Assembly (NCBI GenBank): GCA_021736445.1
Contig: JAIPGA010000004.1
Span: 1 to 56,355 of the forward strand
Length of the DNA stretch: 56,355 nucleotides
Source: Synergistales bacterium
GTDB lineage: Bacteria > Synergistota > Synergistia > Synergistales > Aminiphilaceae
Direction of reading: 5' to 3'
Shown piece after piece: positions 24,532 through 38,640 of the stretch. The notes under the pieces are model-generated. The model worked only from the letters and a program-made list of their open reading frames with translations, was not told the origin of the DNA and did no database searches. The translations under genes and the position numbers were made by a program. Every line of letters starts with the position of its first letter. Position 1 is the stretch's first letter.

Positions 24532-24608
24532 TGGTGGGCCCACCTGGACTCGAACCAGGAACCTTCCGGTTATGAGCCGGTGGCTCTAGCCACTTGAGCT
24601 ATGGGCCC
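24532..24608 (-). tRNA. tRNA with CAT anticodon (elongator Met or Ile2)
   Basis: 77 nt with encoded CCA. The acceptor is GGGCCCA/TGGGCCC, the D stem GCTC/GAGC, the anticodon loop CTCATAA, and the T arm CCTGG-TTCGAGT-CCAGG. The anticodon stem lacks the three G-C pairs of initiator tRNA and has an A-A mismatch at its base (27-43). CAT could be read as Met or, after lysidine modification, as Ile (AUA). The gene lies 59 bases after ferredoxin and may share its transcript. Confidence 0.95.
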
Positions 24609-27252: not shown

Positions 27253-29178
27253 TTACCGCTTCCTCAGGACCCGAACGTTCCCCACTCTCCGTGTGTACCC
27301 CTGGGCATCGAGATACTCGAGCAGGGGGAGCACATACTTGCGGGTGCTCCCCGTGGCGTCGCGCACATCCCCCAGGGAGATCTCCTTCCCCATGCCCTGC
27401 AGCAGTTCAAGGGTCTTCTGTTTCATCCCCTCCGTCAGCAGGAGCCCCCCGCCGAGCACCGCAAGCCGCTCCCGCTGCTTCCCCAGCTCCACCAGGAGGC
27501 CCATCTCCGCTTCGTCCAGCCCGAAGTCCTTCCGCACCTCTTCAATACTGGGCAGCTGCCAGGCCTGCCGGAGCGCCAGCTCGTCCAGCCGGTCGAGAAG
27601 GGCGTCGTACCGCGCCGTGTCCCGGGGCACAAACCCCGGCACCCGGACCCGGCCGTCGTCGACAGCCACGACACCCCTGCGGGCGAAATCGGCCAGGATC
27701 TCCCTGCCCGCCCGTGATGCCCTGCCGGAGAAGGCCTTCTGCACGGCCTCGTCGACGGGCATCCCCGCGAGCTGGGGATGGGCCTCGTGGAAGGCCTCGA
27801 GCCTCTGGAGAAGGCTGCGGGAGAGGCGATCGGACTCCCCGGCATCGAGGAAAAGCCGCGTCCCCTGCAAGGGCAGCACCGTCAGCGCGCCCTTGCCTTC
27901 GAGCTCCTCCGCCAGGCCGTCCACGGCCTCCGCGGTTTCCTGCAGCAGTCGCCTGGCCTCATCGACGGAGAGGATCCCCTCGCTCCGGAGGAAGCTGCGG
28001 AACATCTCCCCCTTGTCGGGAGCCTCCTCGAGCTCCCGCAGCGTGCCCGAGAGCTCCTCCCGGCGGCGCCTTCCCCGGGGCTTCCGCCCATAGGGGTAGA
28101 GCACCTCGCCGCCGCCGATGGTGATCAGCGGGCTGTAGAAACGGACGACGAAACGCTGCCGCAGCGAGGCCACCACCCGCTCCTCCAGCACCAGCTGAGC
28201 CGGTCCGCTCTCCCCGGGGGCGATGGTCCGTCCCTCCGGCAGGGAGAGGCGGGCCAGCACATCCGCCGTGCCGATATGGACCCGCACCCGCTGCCAGTGG
28301 TAGACCGTCTCGGGCGCGGATGTCAGGATGTGGAGCCACACATCGATACAGGAGGTGGGCGAGAAGACATCGGGGCTGCACAGCACGTCACCGCGGTGCA
28401 GCCGGTCCAGCGCCACCCCGGCGAGGTTCACGGCGATCCGCTGGCCGGCGTAGCCCTCGGAGACCGAATGGCCGTGGACCTGGACCCCCCGTACCCTGGT
28501 CTTCTGCTCCGAAGGCTGGATCTCCAGCGCTTCGCCTTCGCGGATCGTCCCGCGGTGGGCGGTCCCGGTGATCACCGTTCCGAATCCCGAGATGGGGAAG
28601 GCCCGGTCGATGGGCAGAAAGAGCGCCCCGCTCCGGTCCCGGGGCCGCACCCGTTCCACCAGGGCCGCCACCTCCCCGGTCAGATCGTCCACCCCCAGGC
28701 CGGTCACCCCGGAGACGGGCACCACCGCCCTGCCTTCCAGGAAGGTCCCCTTCACCGTCTCCCGCACATCCTCCAGGGCCATCTCCAGAAGCTCTTCATC
28801 CACCAGGTCGGCCTTGGAGATCGCCACAATGCCGTCGGCCACACCCAGCAGGGAGAGGATGTCCAGATGCTCCCGGGTCTGCGGCATCACCCCTTCGTCG
28901 GCCGCCACCACCAGGAGCACCGCATCGATCCCCGAGGCGCCGGCCACCATCTGCCTGATGAAGCGTTCGTGACCGGGCACATCGACGACGCTCACCACCG
29001 TTCCGTCCGGCAACGTCAGGGGAGCGAAGCCCAGCTCGATGGTGATGCCCCGCCGTTTCTCCTCGCCCAGCCGGTCGCAGTCGATGTCGGTGACCGCCCT
29101 GATGAGCGTGGTCTTCCCGTGGTCGATATGCCCCGCCGTGCCCAGGACCAGCGCGATCTCCCGGGGCCGCACGCTCAT
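27253..29178 (-). CDS. selB: Selenocysteine-specific translation elongation factor
   Basis: A 641-aa protein of normal length. The N-terminal GTPase has GTAGHIDHGKT (13-23), the RGITI switch and DVPGHE. EF-Tu-like beta-barrels follow, and then winged helices at the C-terminus that bind the SECIS RNA. It delivers Sec-tRNA to UGA codons. Its ATG overlaps the selA stop (ATGA). A UGA-containing substrate gene, fdhA, is in this window. Confidence 0.97.
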   Translation of the reverse strand: MSVRPREIALVLGTAGHIDHGKTTLIRAVTDIDCDRLGEEKRRGITIELGFAPLTLPDGTVVSVVDVPGHERFIRQMVAGASGIDAVLLVVAADEGVMPQTREHLDILSLLGVADGIVAISKADLVDEELLEMALEDVRETVKGTFLEGRAVVPVSGVTGLGVDDLTGEVAALVERVRPRDRSGALFLPIDRAFPISGFGTVITGTAHRGTIREGEALEIQPSEQKTRVRGVQVHGHSVSEGYAGQRIAVNLAGVALDRLHRGDVLCSPDVFSPTSCIDVWLHILTSAPETVYHWQRVRVHIGTADVLARLSLPEGRTIAPGESGPAQLVLEERVVASLRQRFVVRFYSPLITIGGGEVLYPYGRKPRGRRRREELSGTLRELEEAPDKGEMFRSFLRSEGILSVDEARRLLQETAEAVDGLAEELEGKGALTVLPLQGTRLFLDAGESDRLSRSLLQRLEAFHEAHPQLAGMPVDEAVQKAFSGRASRAGREILADFARRGVVAVDDGRVRVPGFVPRDTARYDALLDRLDELALRQAWQLPSIEEVRKDFGLDEAEMGLLVELGKQRERLAVLGGGLLLTEGMKQKTLELLQGMGKEISLGDVRDATGSTRKYVLPLLEYLDAQGYTRRVGNVRVLRKR

Positions 29179-30575
29179 GGAGACACCTCCCCGAGAAGGG
29201 CGGCGAGGGCGTCCACCACAGCGCCTTCGTCCCCCTCGAGCAGCGTCCGGACATGGATCAGCAACGTGTCCTCCCGGGCGCCGCAGACAATGGGCGGATC
29301 GTTCCCGCGCAGGGCCTCCTGCAACCTGCCGGTGGGCATCCGCTCCGGTTTGAGCGCCACCGCCACACCGGGCAGGGCCTCCTGGGGGAAGGCGCCGCCC
29401 CCTACGGCGTCATCCACCTCCACCACCTCGGTCCCTGCGTCCGGAAGCGCCTTCTCCAGGCTCTCCGACAGCGCCTCGGCCCGGGCGTGCAGCGTCTCCC
29501 GTCCCAGGGCCAGCATCCCGACGGTGGGGATCTCCCCTTCCCTGCCGGCGAGGTAGCAGCGCAGGGTGCTCTCCATGGCCGCCAGGGTCATCTTGTCCAC
29601 CCGGAGCGCCCGGGCCAGCGGATAGCTGCGGAGCCGGTCAATGAGCTGACGACGCCCCACAATCCCGCCGATCTGCGGCCCGCCGAGCAACTTGTCGCCC
29701 GAGAAGGTCACCAGGTCCACACCGGCCTGGAGGCAGTCGCGGACCGACGGCTCCCGCGAGAGCCCGTAGGGGGAGAAGTCCAGCAGCATGCCGCTGCCCA
29801 GATCCTCCATGCAGATCAGCTCCCGCTCCCGGGCCATGGCCGCCAGCTCCTCCCTGGTCACCTCGCGGGTGAAGCCCTGGACCCGGAAGTTGGAGGGGTG
29901 CACCTTGAGGAGCATGGCCGTCTGGTCGCCGATGGCGCCCAGATAGTCCGCCGGATGGGTACGGTTGGTGGTGCCCACCTCCCGCATGACGGCCCCCGAG
30001 AAGGTCATGATGTCGGGGATACGGAAGGACCCGCCGATCTCCACCAGCTCGCCGCGGGAGACCACCACCTCCCGTTCGGCCGCCAGCGCGGCCAGCGCCA
30101 GCAGGACCGCGCCGGCATTGTTGTTCACCACCATGGCGGCGTCGGCGCCGGTCACCTCACAGAGGAGCCACTCCACATGGTCGTTGCGCTGCCCGCGGGT
30201 CCCCTCTTCGAGGTTGTACTCCAGCGTATTGTAGGAGGAGGCCACCTGCGTCACCGCCTCCACCGCCTCGCCGCAGAGACAGGAACGCCCCAGATTGGTG
30301 TGGACCACCACCCCCGTGGCGTTCACCACCCGGCGCAGGCTCCGCTGGAGACGCCGCCGGCAACGCCTGCGGGCCTCCTCCACAATGGCCCCCGCATCCA
30401 CCGTCCGGTCCTCCCCTTTTCTGATGTCCCGGCGCAGCTCCCCGACGATATCGGCGAAGACGCCCTTCACCGTCCGTTTCCCCAGGCAGGGCTCCACCTC
30501 GGCGATCCACGGGGCCTCCAGGAGCCTGTCCATCGACGGTATCCTCCGCAGCTTCTCGCGCAGCTCTTCGTCCAC
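29175..30575 (-). CDS. selA: L-seryl-tRNA(Sec) selenium transferase
   Basis: A 466-aa PLP enzyme that converts Ser-tRNA(Sec) to Sec-tRNA(Sec) with selenophosphate. The PLP lysine is in SGDKLLGGPQ; NATGVVVHTNLGRS and GTRGQRNDHVEWLLCE are conserved. The GTG at 30575 has GGGGGAAGG upstream; an ATG at 30599 and earlier starts are possible. It forms an operon with selB. Confidence 0.95.
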   Translation of the reverse strand: MDEELREKLRRIPSMDRLLEAPWIAEVEPCLGKRTVKGVFADIVGELRRDIRKGEDRTVDAGAIVEEARRRCRRRLQRSLRRVVNATGVVVHTNLGRSCLCGEAVEAVTQVASSYNTLEYNLEEGTRGQRNDHVEWLLCEVTGADAAMVVNNNAGAVLLALAALAAEREVVVSRGELVEIGGSFRIPDIMTFSGAVMREVGTTNRTHPADYLGAIGDQTAMLLKVHPSNFRVQGFTREVTREELAAMARERELICMEDLGSGMLLDFSPYGLSREPSVRDCLQAGVDLVTFSGDKLLGGPQIGGIVGRRQLIDRLRSYPLARALRVDKMTLAAMESTLRCYLAGREGEIPTVGMLALGRETLHARAEALSESLEKALPDAGTEVVEVDDAVGGGAFPQEALPGVAVALKPERMPTGRLQEALRGNDPPIVCGAREDTLLIHVRTLLEGDEGAVVDALAALLGEVSP

Positions 30576-30633
30576 TGTCCTTCCCCCTGTTGTGTGCATA
30601 TCCTCTGTTGCATCCCCCTGTTGCCTGTTCACC

Positions 30634-30662
30634 TTGAGACATACCCACGATCATGTTATACT
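30634..30662 (+). promoter_or_regulatory. Promoter of pncA-yedF
   Basis: TTGAGA (30634-30639), a 17-base spacer, and TATACT (30657-30662); the predicted start is near 30669. It interleaves with the opposite selA promoter. Confidence 0.75.
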
Positions 30663-30663
30663 T

Positions 30664-30692
30664 ATCATAATACAGCATACACCCCGGCTCAA
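30664..30692 (-). promoter_or_regulatory. Promoter of selA-selB
   Basis: Minus-strand TTGAGC (30692-30687), a 17-base spacer, and TATGAT (30669-30664). Its -10 is one base away from the -10 of pncA, so the two promoters cannot be occupied together. Confidence 0.65.
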
Positions 30693-30712
30693 CGCGCAAG
30701 GAGGTGGATTCC

Positions 30713-31300
30713 ATGTACAGACCGGAAGCGCTGCTGGTGGTTGACGTCCAGAAGGATTTCCTTCCCGGCGGCGCCCTGGGCGTTCCGGGAAGCGAGGCCA
30801 TTGTACCCATAATCAACGGGCTCGTCGAAAGATACGGAAGCGCCGGCTGCCCGCTGGTTTTCTCGCGGGACTGGCACCCGGCGGGACACGCGAGCTTCGA
30901 GGAACAGGGCGGACCCTGGCCGCCGCACTGCATCCAGGGCACCGAAGGCGCCGAATTCGCTCCGGGGATGGCTATCCCCCCGGAGGCCCGCATCCTCGAT
31001 ACGGCGGACCATCTCGATCACGACGCCTACTCGGCCTTCCAGGAAACCGATCTGGGGGAGTATTTCAGAAAACAGGGCGTAGGAACCATCACCATCTGCG
31101 GCCTCGTGACGGAGATCTGCGTCCGGGCCACCGTTCTGGGGGCCCTGGAAGAGGGATTCGACGTACTGATGCTTCCAGACGCCAGCCGGGGGGTCAATCT
31201 GAACGAAGGCGACGAAGAGCGGGCCCTCGGGGAGATGGCCCTGGCGGGAGCGGTGCTCTGCCCGGCAGAGCGTCTTCCCGAGCCCGCCGCACCGCAATAG
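30713..31300 (+). CDS. pncA: Nicotinamidase / isochorismatase-family hydrolase
   Basis: A 195-aa cysteine hydrolase. VVDVQKDFLPGGALGV contains the catalytic Asp; the metal-site D-x-HP segment is SRDWHPAGHASF; the PncA-like GPWPPHCIQGTEGAEF follows; GLVTEICVRATV contains the nucleophilic Cys. It hydrolyses nicotinamide to nicotinate for NAD salvage. AAGGAGGTG precedes the ATG at 30713. It is followed by yedF after 45 bases. Confidence 0.9.
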   Translation: MYRPEALLVVDVQKDFLPGGALGVPGSEAIVPIINGLVERYGSAGCPLVFSRDWHPAGHASFEEQGGPWPPHCIQGTEGAEFAPGMAIPPEARILDTADHLDHDAYSAFQETDLGEYFRKQGVGTITICGLVTEICVRATVLGALEEGFDVLMLPDASRGVNLNEGDEERALGEMALAGAVLCPAERLPEPAAPQ

Positions 31301-31345
31301 GCATTCCGGCACCAATCATCCTTGAATCGGAAGGGGAAGTGGAAG

Positions 31346-31939
31346 GTGAAGACAGTCAACGCCAGAGGCAGGGCCTGCCCGGAGCCGGTCATGATGACCA
31401 AGAAGATGATCGACACCGGAGAACGGGAGATCCAGGTGCTTGTCGACAACAAGGTCGCCGTCTCCAACGTCACGCGGATGTTCGAGAAGATGGGCTACAG
31501 CGTGGCACAGGGGGGCGAGGGAACCGATCTCACCGTCACCGGAACCGGCGGCGACAGTGCGGCGCAGCCGGCGGCAAAGGACAGCGACGAAGGATCCCTG
31601 GAGGATGTGGCCATCCTTGTCTCCGGGAAGGAGCTGGGCAAGGAAGACAGGGAGCTCGGCGAGGTGCTGATCAAGGGCTTTCTGGGGGCTATGGCCGAAC
31701 GGGACAGACCGCCCCGCGTGGTGGCCCTGATGAACGAGGGGGTCTTCCTCGCTCTGGACGACCACACCGCCCTGGAGAGCCTCAGGCAGCTCGAGGCGAA
31801 GGGGACGGAGCTGCTGGTCTGCGGCACCTGCACGACCCACTTCGGTGTCACCGACCGGGTGGGCGCCGGCGTGGTCTCCAACATGTTCGACATCTCCGAA
31901 GCGCTCCTCGGCGTCGCCCGGACGGTCTGTCTCGGTTGA
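31346..31939 (+). CDS. yedF: YedF, sulfurtransferase-like selenium metabolism protein
   Basis: A 197-aa two-domain protein. The N-terminal TusA/SirA-like domain holds GRACPEPVMMTKK (the CP motif Cys), and the C-terminal DsrE-like domain contains ELLVCGTCTTHFGV. This fusion is a known marker of selenium-using bacteria, though its reaction is unproven. The GTG at 31346 follows AAGGGG. It sits beside selA-selB, so a role in selenium delivery is likely. Confidence 0.88.
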   Translation: MKTVNARGRACPEPVMMTKKMIDTGEREIQVLVDNKVAVSNVTRMFEKMGYSVAQGGEGTDLTVTGTGGDSAAQPAAKDSDEGSLEDVAILVSGKELGKEDRELGEVLIKGFLGAMAERDRPPRVVALMNEGVFLALDDHTALESLRQLEAKGTELLVCGTCTTHFGVTDRVGAGVVSNMFDISEALLGVARTVCLG

Positions 31940-33465: not shown

Positions 33466-33493
33466 TTGACAGCCTCGGCAGGCCTGGTATACT
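33466..33493 (+). promoter_or_regulatory. Promoter of the leader/aminotransferase operon
   Basis: A perfect TTGACA (33466-33471), a 16-base spacer, and TATACT (33488-33493). Predicted start near 33501, giving a leader of about 240 bases. Confidence 0.8.
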
Positions 33494-33549
33494 TCCCAAC
33501 CAATACGAAATGCCGTGCGAGCAAATCCGGCGGAAAGGAGCGGCGGCGC

Positions 33550-33651
33550 ATGTCTCTACAGAGATCACAGATCGATTCCAGTCTTCATACCGTTATGCTG
33601 ACCAGCATGATGATGTGCGTCGGCCCTCCTGGGGTGATCGGCGCACGCTAG
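33550..33651 (+). CDS. Putative 33-codon leader peptide rich in methionine
   Basis: This small reading frame has AAAGGAG 9 bases before its ATG and encodes 33 residues. There are five Met in all, including three consecutive ATG codons followed by TGC (MLTSMMMC), and then GPPG. Its stop codon sits in the loop of GCACG-ctagt-CGTGC, itself inside a larger stem (33638-33644 with 33665-33671). A strong terminator follows 29 bases later. It fits a leader peptide whose translation senses Met (or Cys) charging; the peptide has no similarity I recognise. Confidence 0.5.
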   Translation: MSLQRSQIDSSLHTVMLTSMMMCVGPPGVIGAR

Positions 33652-33679
33652 TCGTGCACAGGCAGCGCCGAGCGTTCCG

Positions 33680-33716
33680 GGCCAGGGCTCCCAAAGGGGG
33701 GTCCTGGTCTTTTTTT
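33680..33716 (+). terminator. Attenuator-type intrinsic terminator before the unknown gene
   Basis: A 13-bp stem (33680-33692 with 33697-33709, AAAG loop) is followed by seven T. It lies 27 bases before the 33743 start, so transcription must pass it to express the operon. A short upstream segment (CCTGG, 33628-33632) can pair with CCAGG of the 5' arm as a weak antiterminator. Confidence 0.8.
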
Positions 33717-33742
33717 GTATCTTTGAATAAGGGGGATGCGTA

Positions 33743-35032
33743 ATGACTGCACAGAAGGCACTGCGGCTGCAGGATGTGGAAGGCGTGGCGGAGGTCGTGG
33801 CGAACAGCTGGGTTGTCGGCGAGCTGGAGCGTGTGGTGGCCCGCTACGGCACACCGGAGGAGATCAACCGCAAGGCCCGGGAACAGGGGAGCGTAGCGGC
33901 GCTCAAGGAGCGGCTGCGGCGGGAGCGGTCGCCCTATCTGGCCGATCTGGCCTGGCTGGAAGACAGCGTCGCCGACGGGGCCTTTGTGGAGGCCGACAGG
34001 TTCGCGCGGGAACAGGGCGGTATCCCCGAAGGGGCGAACAGCCATCCCGTGACGCTGGAGCTCAGCGCGCTGCAGTACTTCCCCTGGCTGATCGCACAGG
34101 CGAAGGCCGCCATCCGCAATGGCGAGCTCCTGCCCGGTCGGTTCATCCGCGTCCGGAACATGGCCGAGCAGGAGGCCGACGGCGACCTGGCGGCGGTGGC
34201 GGCGGCCATGGGGATCCTGGGCTGCAGCTGGGTGGAGACGCGGGACACCAGGGGGACCGACGGCTCCAACGTCCACCTGGGCGGGCCCGAGACAATCACC
34301 GGCTACTTCGGCGGCGTGGGCCAGCCCAACGACCACCCGCTGCGGTGGGCCGGGGAGTTCCTCCACTACTACACCGGGTACGGCGTGCGGGAGGTGCTCA
34401 ACGTCAACCCCGGCACGGTGCTGCTGGGCTTTCTGCTCTACCGGATGGGGGTGGATATCCACTTCAAGGTCTCCGTCTTCATGGGCAACGACAACCCCTT
34501 CGCCGTGCTGAGCATGCTCTCCCTGGCCCGGCTCTTCGCCCGCGACGACGGCACGACACCGCTGTCGGGGTTCAACGTCTCCAACTCCATGACAGCGGAG
34601 ACAATCCGCCGGAGCGCCGCCCTCCGGGAGGCGCTGGGGCTCACCGAGCAGGTGCGGATCGAGCACCACATCACGGAGACCTACAGGAGCATCGTCCGCC
34701 AGCCCTACAACCGGCGCGGCGACATCGTAGAGCTGGGACGGACCGTGCCCAACCTCTCGGCCAAGCACGAAGGCGGCGATCCCGAGACCGAGGCGGCGGC
34801 CGAGGTCCCCTCGGATCTGCTGCACTACTTCCTGGCCAGGGAGGATATCGAAGCGGAGAACGCCATGGAAGGACTGGAGACCTCCTACCTCAGGAAGCAC
34901 GAAGCCGTGAACGCCACGGCGGCCGCACTGGTCCGGGCGGGGATCCCCGTGGCGGCCGCCCCGCATGCGCATCACGGAACAGGCCGAAACCGTGTAGAAT
35001 CGGAGAAACAGGCGGCATCGGTGCTGTCGTAA
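33743..35032 (+). CDS. Unrecognised conserved-looking cytosolic protein (429 aa)
   Basis: A soluble protein with no signal peptide or membrane helix. It is helix-rich at the N-terminus; the middle alternates strand-like and helix-like stretches, suggesting an alpha/beta barrel. Notable polar motifs are GGPETITGYFGG, NVNPGTVLLG, SVFMGNDNPF, EHHITETYRSI and a C-terminal PHAHHGTGRN; the His/Asn/Asp content could form a metal or cofactor site. The start has a purine-rich AAGGGGG upstream. It is the first gene of an operon with an aminotransferase 15 bases downstream, and sits behind an attenuator-like leader. I cannot assign a family; an amino-acid-related enzyme is an inference from context. Confidence 0.75.
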   Translation: MTAQKALRLQDVEGVAEVVANSWVVGELERVVARYGTPEEINRKAREQGSVAALKERLRRERSPYLADLAWLEDSVADGAFVEADRFAREQGGIPEGANSHPVTLELSALQYFPWLIAQAKAAIRNGELLPGRFIRVRNMAEQEADGDLAAVAAAMGILGCSWVETRDTRGTDGSNVHLGGPETITGYFGGVGQPNDHPLRWAGEFLHYYTGYGVREVLNVNPGTVLLGFLLYRMGVDIHFKVSVFMGNDNPFAVLSMLSLARLFARDDGTTPLSGFNVSNSMTAETIRRSAALREALGLTEQVRIEHHITETYRSIVRQPYNRRGDIVELGRTVPNLSAKHEGGDPETEAAAEVPSDLLHYFLAREDIEAENAMEGLETSYLRKHEAVNATAAALVRAGIPVAAAPHAHHGTGRNRVESEKQAASVLS

Positions 35033-35056
35033 GCTGGAAAAGGAGGAATGGCTGTG

Positions 35057-36250
35057 ATGCAGATTGCGAAACGATCCGGGCGGCTGCTCGGCGAGGCGGC
35101 CTTCGACGTGCTGGCCAGGGTCAAGGAAGAGGAAGGAAAGGGCAGGGATATCGTGAGCTTCGCCATCGGCGAACCCGACTTCGACACCCCCCAGCGCGTG
35201 AAGGACGCGGCGATCCGGGCGCTGCAGGAGGGGGCCACCCACTACACGCCCTCCCCCGGAACGGCGGCCTTCCGGCAGGCCGTGGCAAAGAAGGTCTCGG
35301 CCCAGGCGGGGGTGGCGATCACGCCGCAGCAGGTGCTGGCCTTCCCGGGGGTGAAGCCGGTGCTCTTCTGCAGCCTCATGTCCATCATCGACGAGGGCGA
35401 CGAGGTGGTCATGCCCACACCGGGCTTCCCCGCCTACGGGTCGCTGATCCGGTACGCCGGCGGAACCCCCGTGCCGCTGCCGCTCCGCGAGGACCGGGGC
35501 TTCGGCTTCGACGCCCGGGAGCTGCGGCGCCTGGTGGGGCCGAAAACGAGCGCCATCATCATCAACAGCCCCCACAACCCCACCGGCGGGGTGCTGACCG
35601 ACGAGCAGCTGCAGACCGTGGCCGATCTGGCCGAAGAGCACGACCTCTGGGTTGTCTCCGACGAGGTCTACCGGGCCTTTGTCTACGACGGGGGCCACAC
35701 GAGCTTTCTCTCCCTCCCGGGGATGCGGGAGCGCACGATCCTGGTGGACGGCTTCTCCAAGACCTACGCCATGACGGGCTGGCGGCTCGGGTACGGGGTG
35801 ATGCCCGATGAGCTGGTGCCCAGGGTGAGCCTGCTGGTGACCAATTCCGTCTCCTGTACGTCGGCGTTCACCCAGGCGGCGGGGGTGGCGGCGCTTGATG
35901 AGTGCGACGACGATGTGGCGGCCATGGTCGAGGAATACCGGGTGCGGCGGGATCTGATCGTGGAGGGGCTGAACGGCCTCCCCGGCGTCCGCTGTCCCGA
36001 ACCGCCCGGGGCCTTCTACGCCTTCGCCAACGTTACGGAGCTCTGCGCCCGCCTCGGTCTGGACGGTGCGGAGGCGCTGCAGGACTACCTGCTGGAACAT
36101 GCCGGCGTGGCCGTACTGGCCCGGAGCTGCTTCGGCGACCGCTTCCCCGGGGAGAGGGACGAGTACCTCCGTTTCTGCTATGCTACGGATAGAGCGCGTA
36201 TCGGCGAGGGGATCGACCGCCTCGCGGCGCTGCTCGGCCACAACGCCTGA
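35057..36250 (+). CDS. Class I/II pyridoxal-phosphate aminotransferase
   Basis: A protein of about 397 aa of the aspartate-aminotransferase fold I. It has IGEPDFDTP near the N-terminus, NSPHNPTGG, the SDEVYRAFVY block, the PLP lysine in SKTYAMTGWRLGY, and a C-terminal RFCYA with the carboxylate-binding Arg. AAGGAGG precedes three possible starts (ATG 35048, GTG 35054, ATG 35057); spacing favours the last two. It would transaminate an amino acid with a 2-oxo acid; specificity is not readable. It lies between the unknown gene and copZ. Confidence 0.9.
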   Translation: MQIAKRSGRLLGEAAFDVLARVKEEEGKGRDIVSFAIGEPDFDTPQRVKDAAIRALQEGATHYTPSPGTAAFRQAVAKKVSAQAGVAITPQQVLAFPGVKPVLFCSLMSIIDEGDEVVMPTPGFPAYGSLIRYAGGTPVPLPLREDRGFGFDARELRRLVGPKTSAIIINSPHNPTGGVLTDEQLQTVADLAEEHDLWVVSDEVYRAFVYDGGHTSFLSLPGMRERTILVDGFSKTYAMTGWRLGYGVMPDELVPRVSLLVTNSVSCTSAFTQAAGVAALDECDDDVAAMVEEYRVRRDLIVEGLNGLPGVRCPEPPGAFYAFANVTELCARLGLDGAEALQDYLLEHAGVAVLARSCFGDRFPGERDEYLRFCYATDRARIGEGIDRLAALLGHNA

Positions 36251-36266
36251 AAGGAGCGTGGACGCC

Positions 36267-36473
36267 ATGCAGACACTGGTGATCGATGTGCCCGACATGT
36301 CCTGCGACCACTGCGTGAACCGGATCGGCAGGGCTCTCGAAGAGGCCGGCTACCCCGGCGCTCAGGTGGACCTTGCCGGCAAGACGGTGACCGTCGCCGC
36401 CGGGGACGAGAACGCGGTGCTGGCGCTGCTCGACGACACGGGCTATCCCTCGACGGTGAAGGAACGGAGGTAG
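36267..36473 (+). CDS. copZ: Copper chaperone CopZ-like heavy-metal-binding protein
   Basis: A 68-aa single HMA domain with the metal-binding MSCDHC near residues 11-16. It would hand Cu(I) to the adjacent ATPase. AAAGGAG lies upstream of the ATG, 16 bases after the aminotransferase stop; copA starts 4 bases after its end. Confidence 0.9.
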
Positions 36474-36477
36474 AGCG

Positions 36478-38640
36478 ATGGCGGGACAGGAGGAACGGAA
36501 CCTCAAGCGGTCGATGCTCGTGACGGGGATGACCTGCGCCACCTGCTCCCGCATCGTGGAGCGGTCGCTCCGCAAGGTGGACGGCGTGGCCTACGCGGGG
36601 GTCAACCTGGCCACGGAGACGGCCTTCGTGGTGCTCGACCGGGACATCCCCCAGGAGCGCCTGGAGGAAGCGGTCCGCAAAGCCGGGTACGGGGTGACCC
36701 ACGCGAGCCGCGAGGAACGCGAGGCGCGGCGCTATCTGGACGCCCGCAACCGGCTGGCGCTGGCCTGGAGCGTCACGGGCCCGCTGATGGTGATGATGGG
36801 CTTCCACATGGCCGGGACCCACGTGGCGGCCTACCTCTGGTTCGAGACGCTGCTGGGGGCGCTGGTGCTGCTCGCCACGGGACTGCCGACGATCCGGAGC
36901 GCCTGGATCGCCCTCACCCACGGCCACGCCAACATGGATGTGCTGGTGAGCCTGGGGACCGTGACGGCCTGGTGTACGGCCCCCGCCACGCTGGCGGGGG
37001 TTGTGGACACCTCCTTCGGGGCGCTGGGGCCGATGATCCTGGCCCTCCACCTGACCGGGCGCTATATCGAGTCCCACCTGCGGGACCGGGCCGCCAAGGA
37101 GATCAAGGCCCTGCTGAAGATCCAGGCCCGGGAGGCCCGCATCCGCACCGACGACGGCCGGGAGCTCAGTGTCCCCATCGAGGGGCTGAAGACCGGCGTG
37201 ACGGTGCTGGTGCGCCCCGGGGAACGGATCCCCGTGGACGGCCGCATCGAACAGGGGCGGACCTCGGTGGACGAATCGATGATCACCGGCGAGTCCCTGC
37301 CGGTGCAGAAAGAAGAGGGCGCCGAGGTAACCGGCGGGTCGCTGAACCTCGGCGGCGCCCTGGAGATCACGGCGACGGGGATCGGCGAGGACAGCTTCCT
37401 GGCCCGGATGATCGGGCTGATCCAGGAGGCCCAGGGCGCCAAGATCCCCATCCAGGCGCTGGCCGACCGGATCACCAACGTCTTCGTACCGGTGGTGGCC
37501 TCGCTGGCCGTGGCGAGCGGTGTCTTCTGGTATCTCGGCGTGGAGCGCTTCGGCGGCTTCCTCGACGCCGCGGGAAGCCTTCTCCCCTGGGTGACCTCCG
37601 TCCGGGAGCCCTTCTCCCTGGCGGTCTTCGCCTTCATCACCACCATCGTCATCGCCTGCCCCTGCGCCCTGGGACTGGCCACGCCCATGGCGCTGATCAC
37701 CGGGACGGGGCTGGCCTCGCGCAAGGGCATGATCATCCGGAACGCCGAGGCCATCCAGACGGCCCGGGAGATCGGTGTGGTGGTCTTCGACAAGACGGGG
37801 ACCATCACCCAGGGTGCGCCCAGGGTGGTCTGGACGAACCTCGACAGGCAGGCGCTGGCTGTGGCAGGGGCCATGGAGCGCAACTCCACCCATCCCCTGG
37901 CGACGGCCATCGCCGACTACGCACCGGACGGGCAGACCGCCGTGACAGAGCTCCGGGAGCAGGCCGGCGAGGGCGTCAGCGCCACGGTGGACGACGACGC
38001 CTGGTTTGTGGGCAAACCGAAGGAAACGGAACGGTACCGGGAGTGCTACGCCGAAGGCGCCACGGTGGTGGAGGTGCGCAAAAACGACAGGGTCGTCGGG
38101 GCCCTCGCCGTGAAGGATCCGGTGCGCGCCGACGCCGCCCGGGGGATCCGGCGCTTCCAGGAGCAGGGCATCGCCACGGTGATGGCCACCGGCGATGTGC
38201 AAGAGACCGCCGAGGCGGTGGCCCGGCAGGTGGGGATCGATGAGGTCATGGCGGGCATCAAGCCGGAGGACAAGCTCTACGTGGTGCGCCGCGCCCAGAG
38301 CAACGGCGCGAAGGTGCTCATGGTGGGCGACGGCATGAACGACGCCGCGGCGCTCAAGGGGGCCGACATCGGTGTTGCCGTGGGAAGCGGCATGGACCTG
38401 GCCATCGACAGCGCCGATGTGGTGGTCGTCAAGGGCGGTCTGCCCTCGGTGGCCGACGTGGTGGGGATCTCCACCAAGACCTTCGCCGTGATCCGGCAGA
38501 ACCTCGCCTGGGCCTTCGGCTACAATGTGGTGGCCATCCCGCTGGCCATGATGGGGCTGCTCCACCCGGTGATCGCCGAGAGCGCCATGGCGCTGAGCTC
38601 CATATCGGTGGTCCTCAACTCGCTGCGGATCAAACAGTAA
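36478..38640 (+). CDS. copA: Cu(+)-exporting P1B-type ATPase
   Basis: A 720-aa protein with one N-terminal HMA domain (MTCATC), eight predicted membrane helices, the phosphatase TGES, the transmembrane metal site ACPCALG, the phosphorylation motif DKTGT, the HP locus (STHPLA), and [14 protein letters not shown] in helix 7 and MALSS in helix 8 complete the Cu(I) signature. It pumps Cu(I) out of the cytoplasm. No CsoR or CueR gene is adjacent; expression appears tied to the amino-acid-related operon upstream. Confidence 0.95.

Follow-up and report, generated by a model that had tools for sequence, protein, structure and literature searches.

The leader upstream of the operon that begins at position 33743 of the window (the whole 56,355-nt stretch of Synergistales DNA analyzed here) is very probably a ribosome-mediated transcription attenuator that senses charged tRNA-Met, and perhaps tRNA-Cys too. 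We think it likely that this leader belongs to a phylum-specific "plug-in" family, in which one chassis, present up to 18 times per genome, carries a codon cassette 3–7 codons before the antiterminator segment; the cassettes would sense Met, Met and Thr, Ile/Val/Leu, Ile, or Phe/Tyr/Trp. The family may hold the first Met-sensing leader-peptide attenuators, and includes tandem pairs with SAM-I riboswitches. The mechanism is classical ribosome-mediated attenuation, in which we infer translation of the leader ORF, ribosome stalling and charged-tRNA sensing. A first-pass annotation of the window had proposed a single, unusual attenuator of the Met (or Met/Cys) type at this site; the type holds, but the leader is not a one-off, its relatives being spread through the order.

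All elements of the leader lie on the plus strand. The promoter (33466–33493) combines a −35 TTGACA (33466–33471) and a −10 TATACT (33488–33493) with a 16-nt spacer and an extended TG; it agrees with the consensus at 11 of 12 positions, and shuffles give an expectation of about 0.2 promoter-like sites. TTGACA recurs at the homologous position in the leaders of relatives. A leader ORF of 33 codons, MSLQRSQIDSSLHTVMLTSMMMCVGPPGVIGAR, occupies 33550–33651, with its TAG stop at 33649–33651 and a Shine-Dalgarno sequence, AAAGGAG, read at 33534–33540; leader peptides are conserved in relatives, and AGGAGG-like sites precede the homologous ORFs. The codons ATG ATG ATG TGC (Met-Met-Met-Cys, 33607–33618) form the sensing cassette, as judged from the placement of cognate codons across leaders. 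They are followed by segment 2, GGCCCT (Gly-Pro codons, 33622–33627), the 5′ strand of the antiterminator, which is hidden in a local protector hairpin (33615–33646; local fold z = −2.2) whose 5′ arm starts in the third Met codon. The 3′ strand of the antiterminator, segment 3 (AGGGCT, 33684–33689), lies inside the 5′ arm of an intrinsic terminator (33679–33716) made of a 14-pair stem, GU pairs allowed, at 33679–33710 and then seven T to 33716. The leader region as a whole folds with −100.8 kcal/mol (z = −4.5 against shuffles). A short ORF with a ribosome-binding site is thus present between promoter and terminator, and the strong promoter, the good ribosome site, the 33-codon frame with three ATG and a TGC, the nested hairpins around its stop and the terminator with seven T before the operon are all as the first-pass annotation had described them.

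On one side of the leader lies the plus-strand operon and on the other a divergent MRP/NifX-type gene pair (minus strand, to 33245). The first regulated gene (33743–35032, plus) encodes a 429-aa protein with homologs and a predicted TIM-barrel fold; the second (35048–36250, plus) is a class I/II PLP aminotransferase by family match. The same gene pair follows the leader in loci L002 and L004, and in L171 the aminotransferase stands behind the leader without a homolog of gene 33743. Genes for a CopZ-like chaperone and a heavy-metal P-type ATPase (36261–38640) start within about 10 bases of the genes before them and may be part of the attenuated transcript. Elsewhere the window carries a tRNA-Met (24532–24608) and a selenium cluster (27253–31936) with a SelB-like factor, SelA (29175–30632, minus) and YedF (31322–31939, plus).

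The leader was compared across 183 genomes of the window's order (Synergistota), 48 of which contain a homolog of gene 33743. The promoter-ORF-terminator unit stands ahead of many of these copies in families f1, f3, f4 and f6, with leader peptides such as MNCKLFSSAITMMMCTTMYGDPSEGVGA, VTRISQPLLSAVLNAMMMRSDPPGAGGA, MGFSRFIRASSPVSAFFGMMMCSDPPGA and VNFKFFVFGTTMMCTTKFGDPSRGVGA; homologs in f2, f7, f9, f10 and part of f3 have no such leader. Because the unit precedes the homologous gene in three families besides that of the window, a chance origin is unlikely; a fortuitous ORF and terminator were ruled out by this conservation together with the matching of cassettes to genes. The N termini of the peptides are unrelated, and the conserved parts are the Met run and a C-terminal (D/G)P(P/S)xxxGA, also written (D/G)PPGxxGA. 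Lack of the small frame or its Met run in relatives had been named beforehand as what would refute the proposal, which passed this check: at least two Met codons occur in the cassette of 14 of the 16 leaders before gene-33743 homologs, but the run is not universal. One exception is f6, where the cassette is rich in Ala and holds a single Met or two (MSRRGPFLLAAAAMCGGPPGGAGAP; cassettes AAAAMC, AAAMAMC and AAAAMAT in L002, L004 and L171), and the other is genome G056, with the cassette TTCTTM (VTTYLWGFKVVTTCTTMFGDPSGRVGA). Between leader ORF and gene, locus L036 (G130) has a tandem pair of terminator hairpins.

The f6 cassettes AAAAMC and AAAMAMC mean that Met is not the sole possible signal at this operon; the f6 gene copies are the ones most similar to the window's gene 33743 (63% identity), and their Ala-rich leaders either sense another amino acid or have lost Met specificity. 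One may therefore suppose the same attenuator with another dominant signal, be it a different amino acid or mixture (Cys, Thr, Leu, Ala) or a general slow-down of translation. The Cys or Arg that follows MMM in most gene-33743 leaders would fit this, as would the mixing of Met with Thr in f4 (TTMMCTT) and the fact that, in f3 and f4, genes for homoserine dehydrogenase and aspartokinase cluster around the gene-33743 homologs. We nevertheless consider it improbable, since in the window leader MMM fills the very A-site positions predicted for antitermination, and the identical MMMC string is found ahead of dedicated methionine genes.

The reading of the window leader as a Met attenuator is also supported by the leaders of other genes. 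A covariance model (R1) built from 14 leaders before gene-33743 homologs was searched across the order and also matched upstream of other amino-acid genes; 80 matched sites were fetched, their leaders and target genes were read, and target identities were checked by NCBIfam and Pfam. Checked targets comprised aspartate kinase, homoserine dehydrogenase, MetN, MetQ, MetX, O-acetylhomoserine sulfhydrylase, the acetolactate synthase small subunit, ketol-acid reductoisomerase, threonine dehydratase, a 2-oxoacid oxidoreductase gamma subunit, a sodium/solute symporter and an AMP-binding enzyme. The cassette is MMMCMC before metNIQ, MMMC..MMMC before metY and metX, and MTMT or TTTTTMTT before aspartokinase/homoserine dehydrogenase; it is VLVLALII, VVVVII or IIIII before ilvN, and IIIIII before threonine dehydratase or 2-oxoacid oxidoreductase. 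FYFYFWF, FFFSFFF or FFEYYY precede a symporter, a solute-binding protein and a phenylacetate-CoA-ligase-like gene. At later sites, whose targets were read from sequence, panB-ilvE is preceded by VVVVV, and phenylacetate-CoA-ligase-like genes are preceded by FFF or YYF.

Counted by pathway, leaders of branched-chain genes are Ile/Val/Leu-rich and Met-free in 25 of 25 cases, those of aspartokinase/homoserine dehydrogenase Met/Thr-rich in 14 of 14 and those of aromatic-type genes Phe/Tyr/Trp-rich in 3 of 3. In the Met group, 31 of 37 passed an automatic Met/Thr-rich call; the others are mostly leaders of the gene-33743 family or of the aminotransferase in f3 and f6, along with one metY leader that has an intact Met run and an Ile/Val-rich flank. 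As one chassis carries pathway-matched codons before different amino-acid genes, we conclude that the cassette tracks the regulated pathway. A codon run for the operon's own amino acid is therefore seen across the family, and for the window operon we infer the match. The conserved frame and cassette, with MMMC also before MetN, MetQ, MetX and MetY, uphold a Met (or Met/Cys) leader-peptide attenuator as first proposed.

A second model (R2), made from 64 distinct leaders and applied at E ≤ 0.001, matched in 125 of the 183 genomes, with the highest numbers in G010 (18) and G017 (12). Run against 26 genomes from other phyla in which the gene-33743 family is present, R2 gave only one partial terminator match and none that was convincing. 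Modeling of the leaders before gene-33743 homologs also recovers the window's own copy, along with one that precedes the acetolactate synthase small subunit gene of that genome. The window genome itself contains four family members with different cassettes: the window's Met leader, an Ile/Val/Leu cassette before ilvN (C11:35876–35974, L229), an FFFFF cassette before a phenylacetate-CoA-ligase-like gene (C16:27583–27684, L273) and, as a weak match, an Ile/Thr cassette before a threonine-dehydratase-like gene (C47:15116–15208, L274). A further, lower-scoring match (C11:19107, L228) has no leader ORF, looks like chance and was set aside.

Ile/Leu/Val cassettes were also seen with other downstream genes (L184, L194, L195, L197, L190, L193, L235, L242, L210, L218, L226 and L239), among them an FAD-dependent oxidoreductase and short ORFs whose products end in WRGPFEGFSA-like sequences. 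Several attenuator copies lie within 4 kb by the ilv genes on contig 8 of G010 (513404–517235; L222, L279), possibly through recent tandem duplication of the module.

Each leader has a stretch, spanning the conserved Pro codons and those just before them, that is similar to the terminator's 3′ arm and able to pair with the 5′ arm. Across 63 distinct leaders, the duplex with the leader's own terminator is favored over that with swapped partners (−17.0 vs −14.9 kcal/mol; permutation z = −7.2). In the fixed register 75% of cells are Watson-Crick pairs, against at most 50% when the register is slid by one to four. Shuffling terminators within classes, which keeps relatedness, lowered the match: the observed value was reached in 48 and in 1 out of 5000 shuffles, figures to be read as counts and not as probabilities. 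On sequence grounds, the strength of the co-variation case lies in several independent double changes rather than in the shuffle counts: segment 2 and its partner read GACCC:GGGTC, GGCCCT:AGGGCC, GGGTCCC:GGGACCC, GGATCCC:GGGATCC and GGTCCCC:GGGGACC. The leaders thus contain a terminator and an antiterminator that exclude each other. The covariance check in relatives favors the short pairing suspected at the outset, which in the window joins GGCCCT to AGGGCT and co-varies across the 63–64 distinct leaders. Evidence for the local protector hairpin consists of 82% paired cells in class A, with weak co-variation by a fixed-column count; RNAalifold, applied to all 64 aligned sequences, did not recover it.

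The same data bear on the conserved peptide end, which could also belong to an arrest peptide of the TnaC/SpeFL type: inside the exit tunnel, (D/G)PPGxxGA would bind a small molecule, and the ribosome would stall near the stop and so cause antitermination. In favor of this, no other part of the peptide is as well conserved as this motif, which includes Pro-Pro, and stalling at the stop would place the ribosome over the 3′ arm of that hairpin. C-terminal conservation independent of RNA pairing was not found. Instead, the motif shifts with the terminator arm, GAC becoming GGC as GGGTC becomes GGGCC, just as RNA pairing expects, and in L032, L033 and L037 an earlier stop removes the peptide end and the RNA, GGGGCGC, is retained. 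Because segment 2 co-varies with the terminator arm and these three leaders keep the RNA, we attribute the conserved peptide end to an RNA constraint. The exchange of cassettes in step with the pathway that they precede further speaks against an arrest peptide, which we regard as very unlikely.

To return to the ribosome-mediated attenuator, we modeled how the position of the ribosome would affect folding: its footprint was masked at one codon after another, and the RNA was folded as far as the terminator's 5′ arm, with footprint size and energy model assumed. Over 64 leaders, the antiterminator probability is highest when the A site lies 4 codons ahead of segment 2 (0.79), is similar at −5 (0.77), falls to 0.18 at −3 and is close to 0 at all positions between −2 and +6. 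The codons of the cognate amino acid were counted in the 55 leaders whose target gene was identified: they occupy position −5 in 53 of 55 (96%), −4 in 69%, −3 in 45 of 55 (82%) and −2 in 1 of 55 (2%). The observed cognate codons therefore peak where the model predicts that a stalled ribosome would free the antiterminator, the placement that attenuation requires. For the window leader, the model puts the antiterminator at 0.91 when the A site holds the second Met codon, compared with 0.01 for free RNA. In many leaders free RNA does form the antiterminator in the model (mean 0.65), and in L229 and L165 a modeled ribosome at the stop leaves it unblocked. An earlier version of the masked fold, which scored any upstream pairing of the terminator arm, had given only a mild trend (0.58 to 0.72), unlike the clear positional signal of the pair-specific version.

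We propose the following sequence of events. When Met-tRNA is plentiful, the ribosome would cross segment 2 and reach the stop codon; segment 2, first masked and then folded into the local hairpin, would leave the terminator free to form, and transcription would end. When Met-tRNA is scarce, the ribosome would stall on the Met codons and cover the 5′ arm of the local hairpin, so that the freed segment 2 could capture the 5′ arm of the terminator and RNA polymerase could read into the operon. Exchange of the cassette on the chassis of promoter, ORF, segment 2 and terminator would set which amino acid is sensed.

Methionine genes are usually controlled by SAM riboswitches or T-boxes. SAM-I riboswitches occur in 113 of the 183 genomes of the order, at times directly upstream of a leader of the present kind, and T-boxes over the cut-off in 44 of 183; such an element might thus control the window operon, with the small frame incidental. 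An Rfam search of the whole window at the gathering cut-off gave no match in the leader, and a search of the leader with E up to 5 gave only an irrelevant match at E 3.6, with no riboswitch, T-box or amino-acid operon leader family, in agreement with the first-pass annotation, which had recognized no SAM riboswitch or T-box. No SAM-I match was detected in the window genome. With the frame and cassette conserved and matching gene function as well, control by a riboswitch or T-box is already largely refuted and we give it almost no credence.

Nine fetched loci (L204, L214, L223, L224, L227, L236, L240, L241 and L243) have a SAM-I aptamer immediately ahead of the MMMC leader of metQ, metY or metX, and one such tandem locus lies on contig 2 of G002 near 1112600; in L224 the order is SAM-I aptamer, the aptamer's terminator, leader ORF, second terminator. 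This arrangement is independent evidence that the module acts on methionine supply. The tandem loci are candidate two-input control regions with two successive terminators, responding to SAM and to Met-tRNA; if so, either SAM or charged tRNA-Met could shut off a met operon.

The product of gene 33743 has no sequence match in Pfam, NCBIfam or PDB. AlphaFold models it confidently as a TIM barrel (pLDDT 88). Foldseek returned generic matches (class II aldolases), and VIA-align returned DUF849/beta-keto-acid cleavage enzymes and epoxysuccinate hydrolase (Z 12–13, 10% identity); as these structural matches are generic, we claim no function from them. The family (about 420 aa) is widespread among anaerobic bacteria and archaea, with 50–60% identity between phyla. 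In Synergistota its genes (X) adjoin those for aspartokinase (AK) and homoserine dehydrogenase (HSD), in the orders AK-HSD-X, HSD-X and X-AK, or the aminotransferase gene. Outside Synergistota the linkage is lost, and homologs have no conserved methionine or threonine neighbors; SAM riboswitches beside them, considered as an independent sign of Met control, were rejected as such, with none in 60 loci. The leader cassette, together with the gene linkage particular to Synergistota, suggests that the window operon may act in the metabolism of homoserine, threonine or methionine. Cassettes of this kind also predict function for genes without an assigned role, including the TIM-barrel family under the window leader.

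Leader-peptide attenuation outside Proteobacteria has likewise been described by comparative genomics, for candidate actinobacterial trp, ilvB, leuS and cys attenuators and Firmicutes his leaders (PMC1262725, PMC9413887, PMC2965389). In the portions of these reports available to us, the 2010 paper (PMC2965389) states that such systems were known from Proteobacteria and Actinobacteria only and adds Firmicutes his leaders, as does PMC9413887; PMC1262725 finds no conserved RNA structure upstream of methionine operons in Actinobacteria; and none of the three describes leaders of this kind in Synergistota. PMC6429828, in the portion available, examines intergenic regions of Thermovirga lienii and names no attenuator for that species. 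We found no report of a Met-type leader-peptide attenuator, or of one from Synergistota, in the open-access literature, subscription journals being outside the scope of the search, so that absence is unproven. What appears to be new, judging from sequence, is a phylum-wide family with one chassis, exchangeable cassettes that include Met, and tandem SAM-I/Met pairs.

Synergistota would thereby have a general amino-acid control system. The family is also a natural cassette-swap series, with dozens of variants on one chassis, for the question of how an RNA switch reads where a ribosome stands, and the tandem SAM-I and Met leaders offer a directly testable two-input gate.

The task and the output are those of T-boxes and SAM-I riboswitches, namely premature termination before met genes. 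Those elements bind tRNA or SAM directly, without translation, whereas here the leader ORF and the ribosome are the sensor. Proteobacterial leaders for different amino acids have, to our knowledge, no common sequence chassis, and we know of no Met-type leader among the proteobacterial attenuators. Among known systems, the proteobacterial attenuators thrL, ilvL, leuL, hisL, pheL and trpL come close; no Rfam leader family matches the window leader. In contrast to the proteobacterial leaders, those of the present family all share one segment-2/terminator module, with exchangeable codons and with segment 2 placed inside the ORF.
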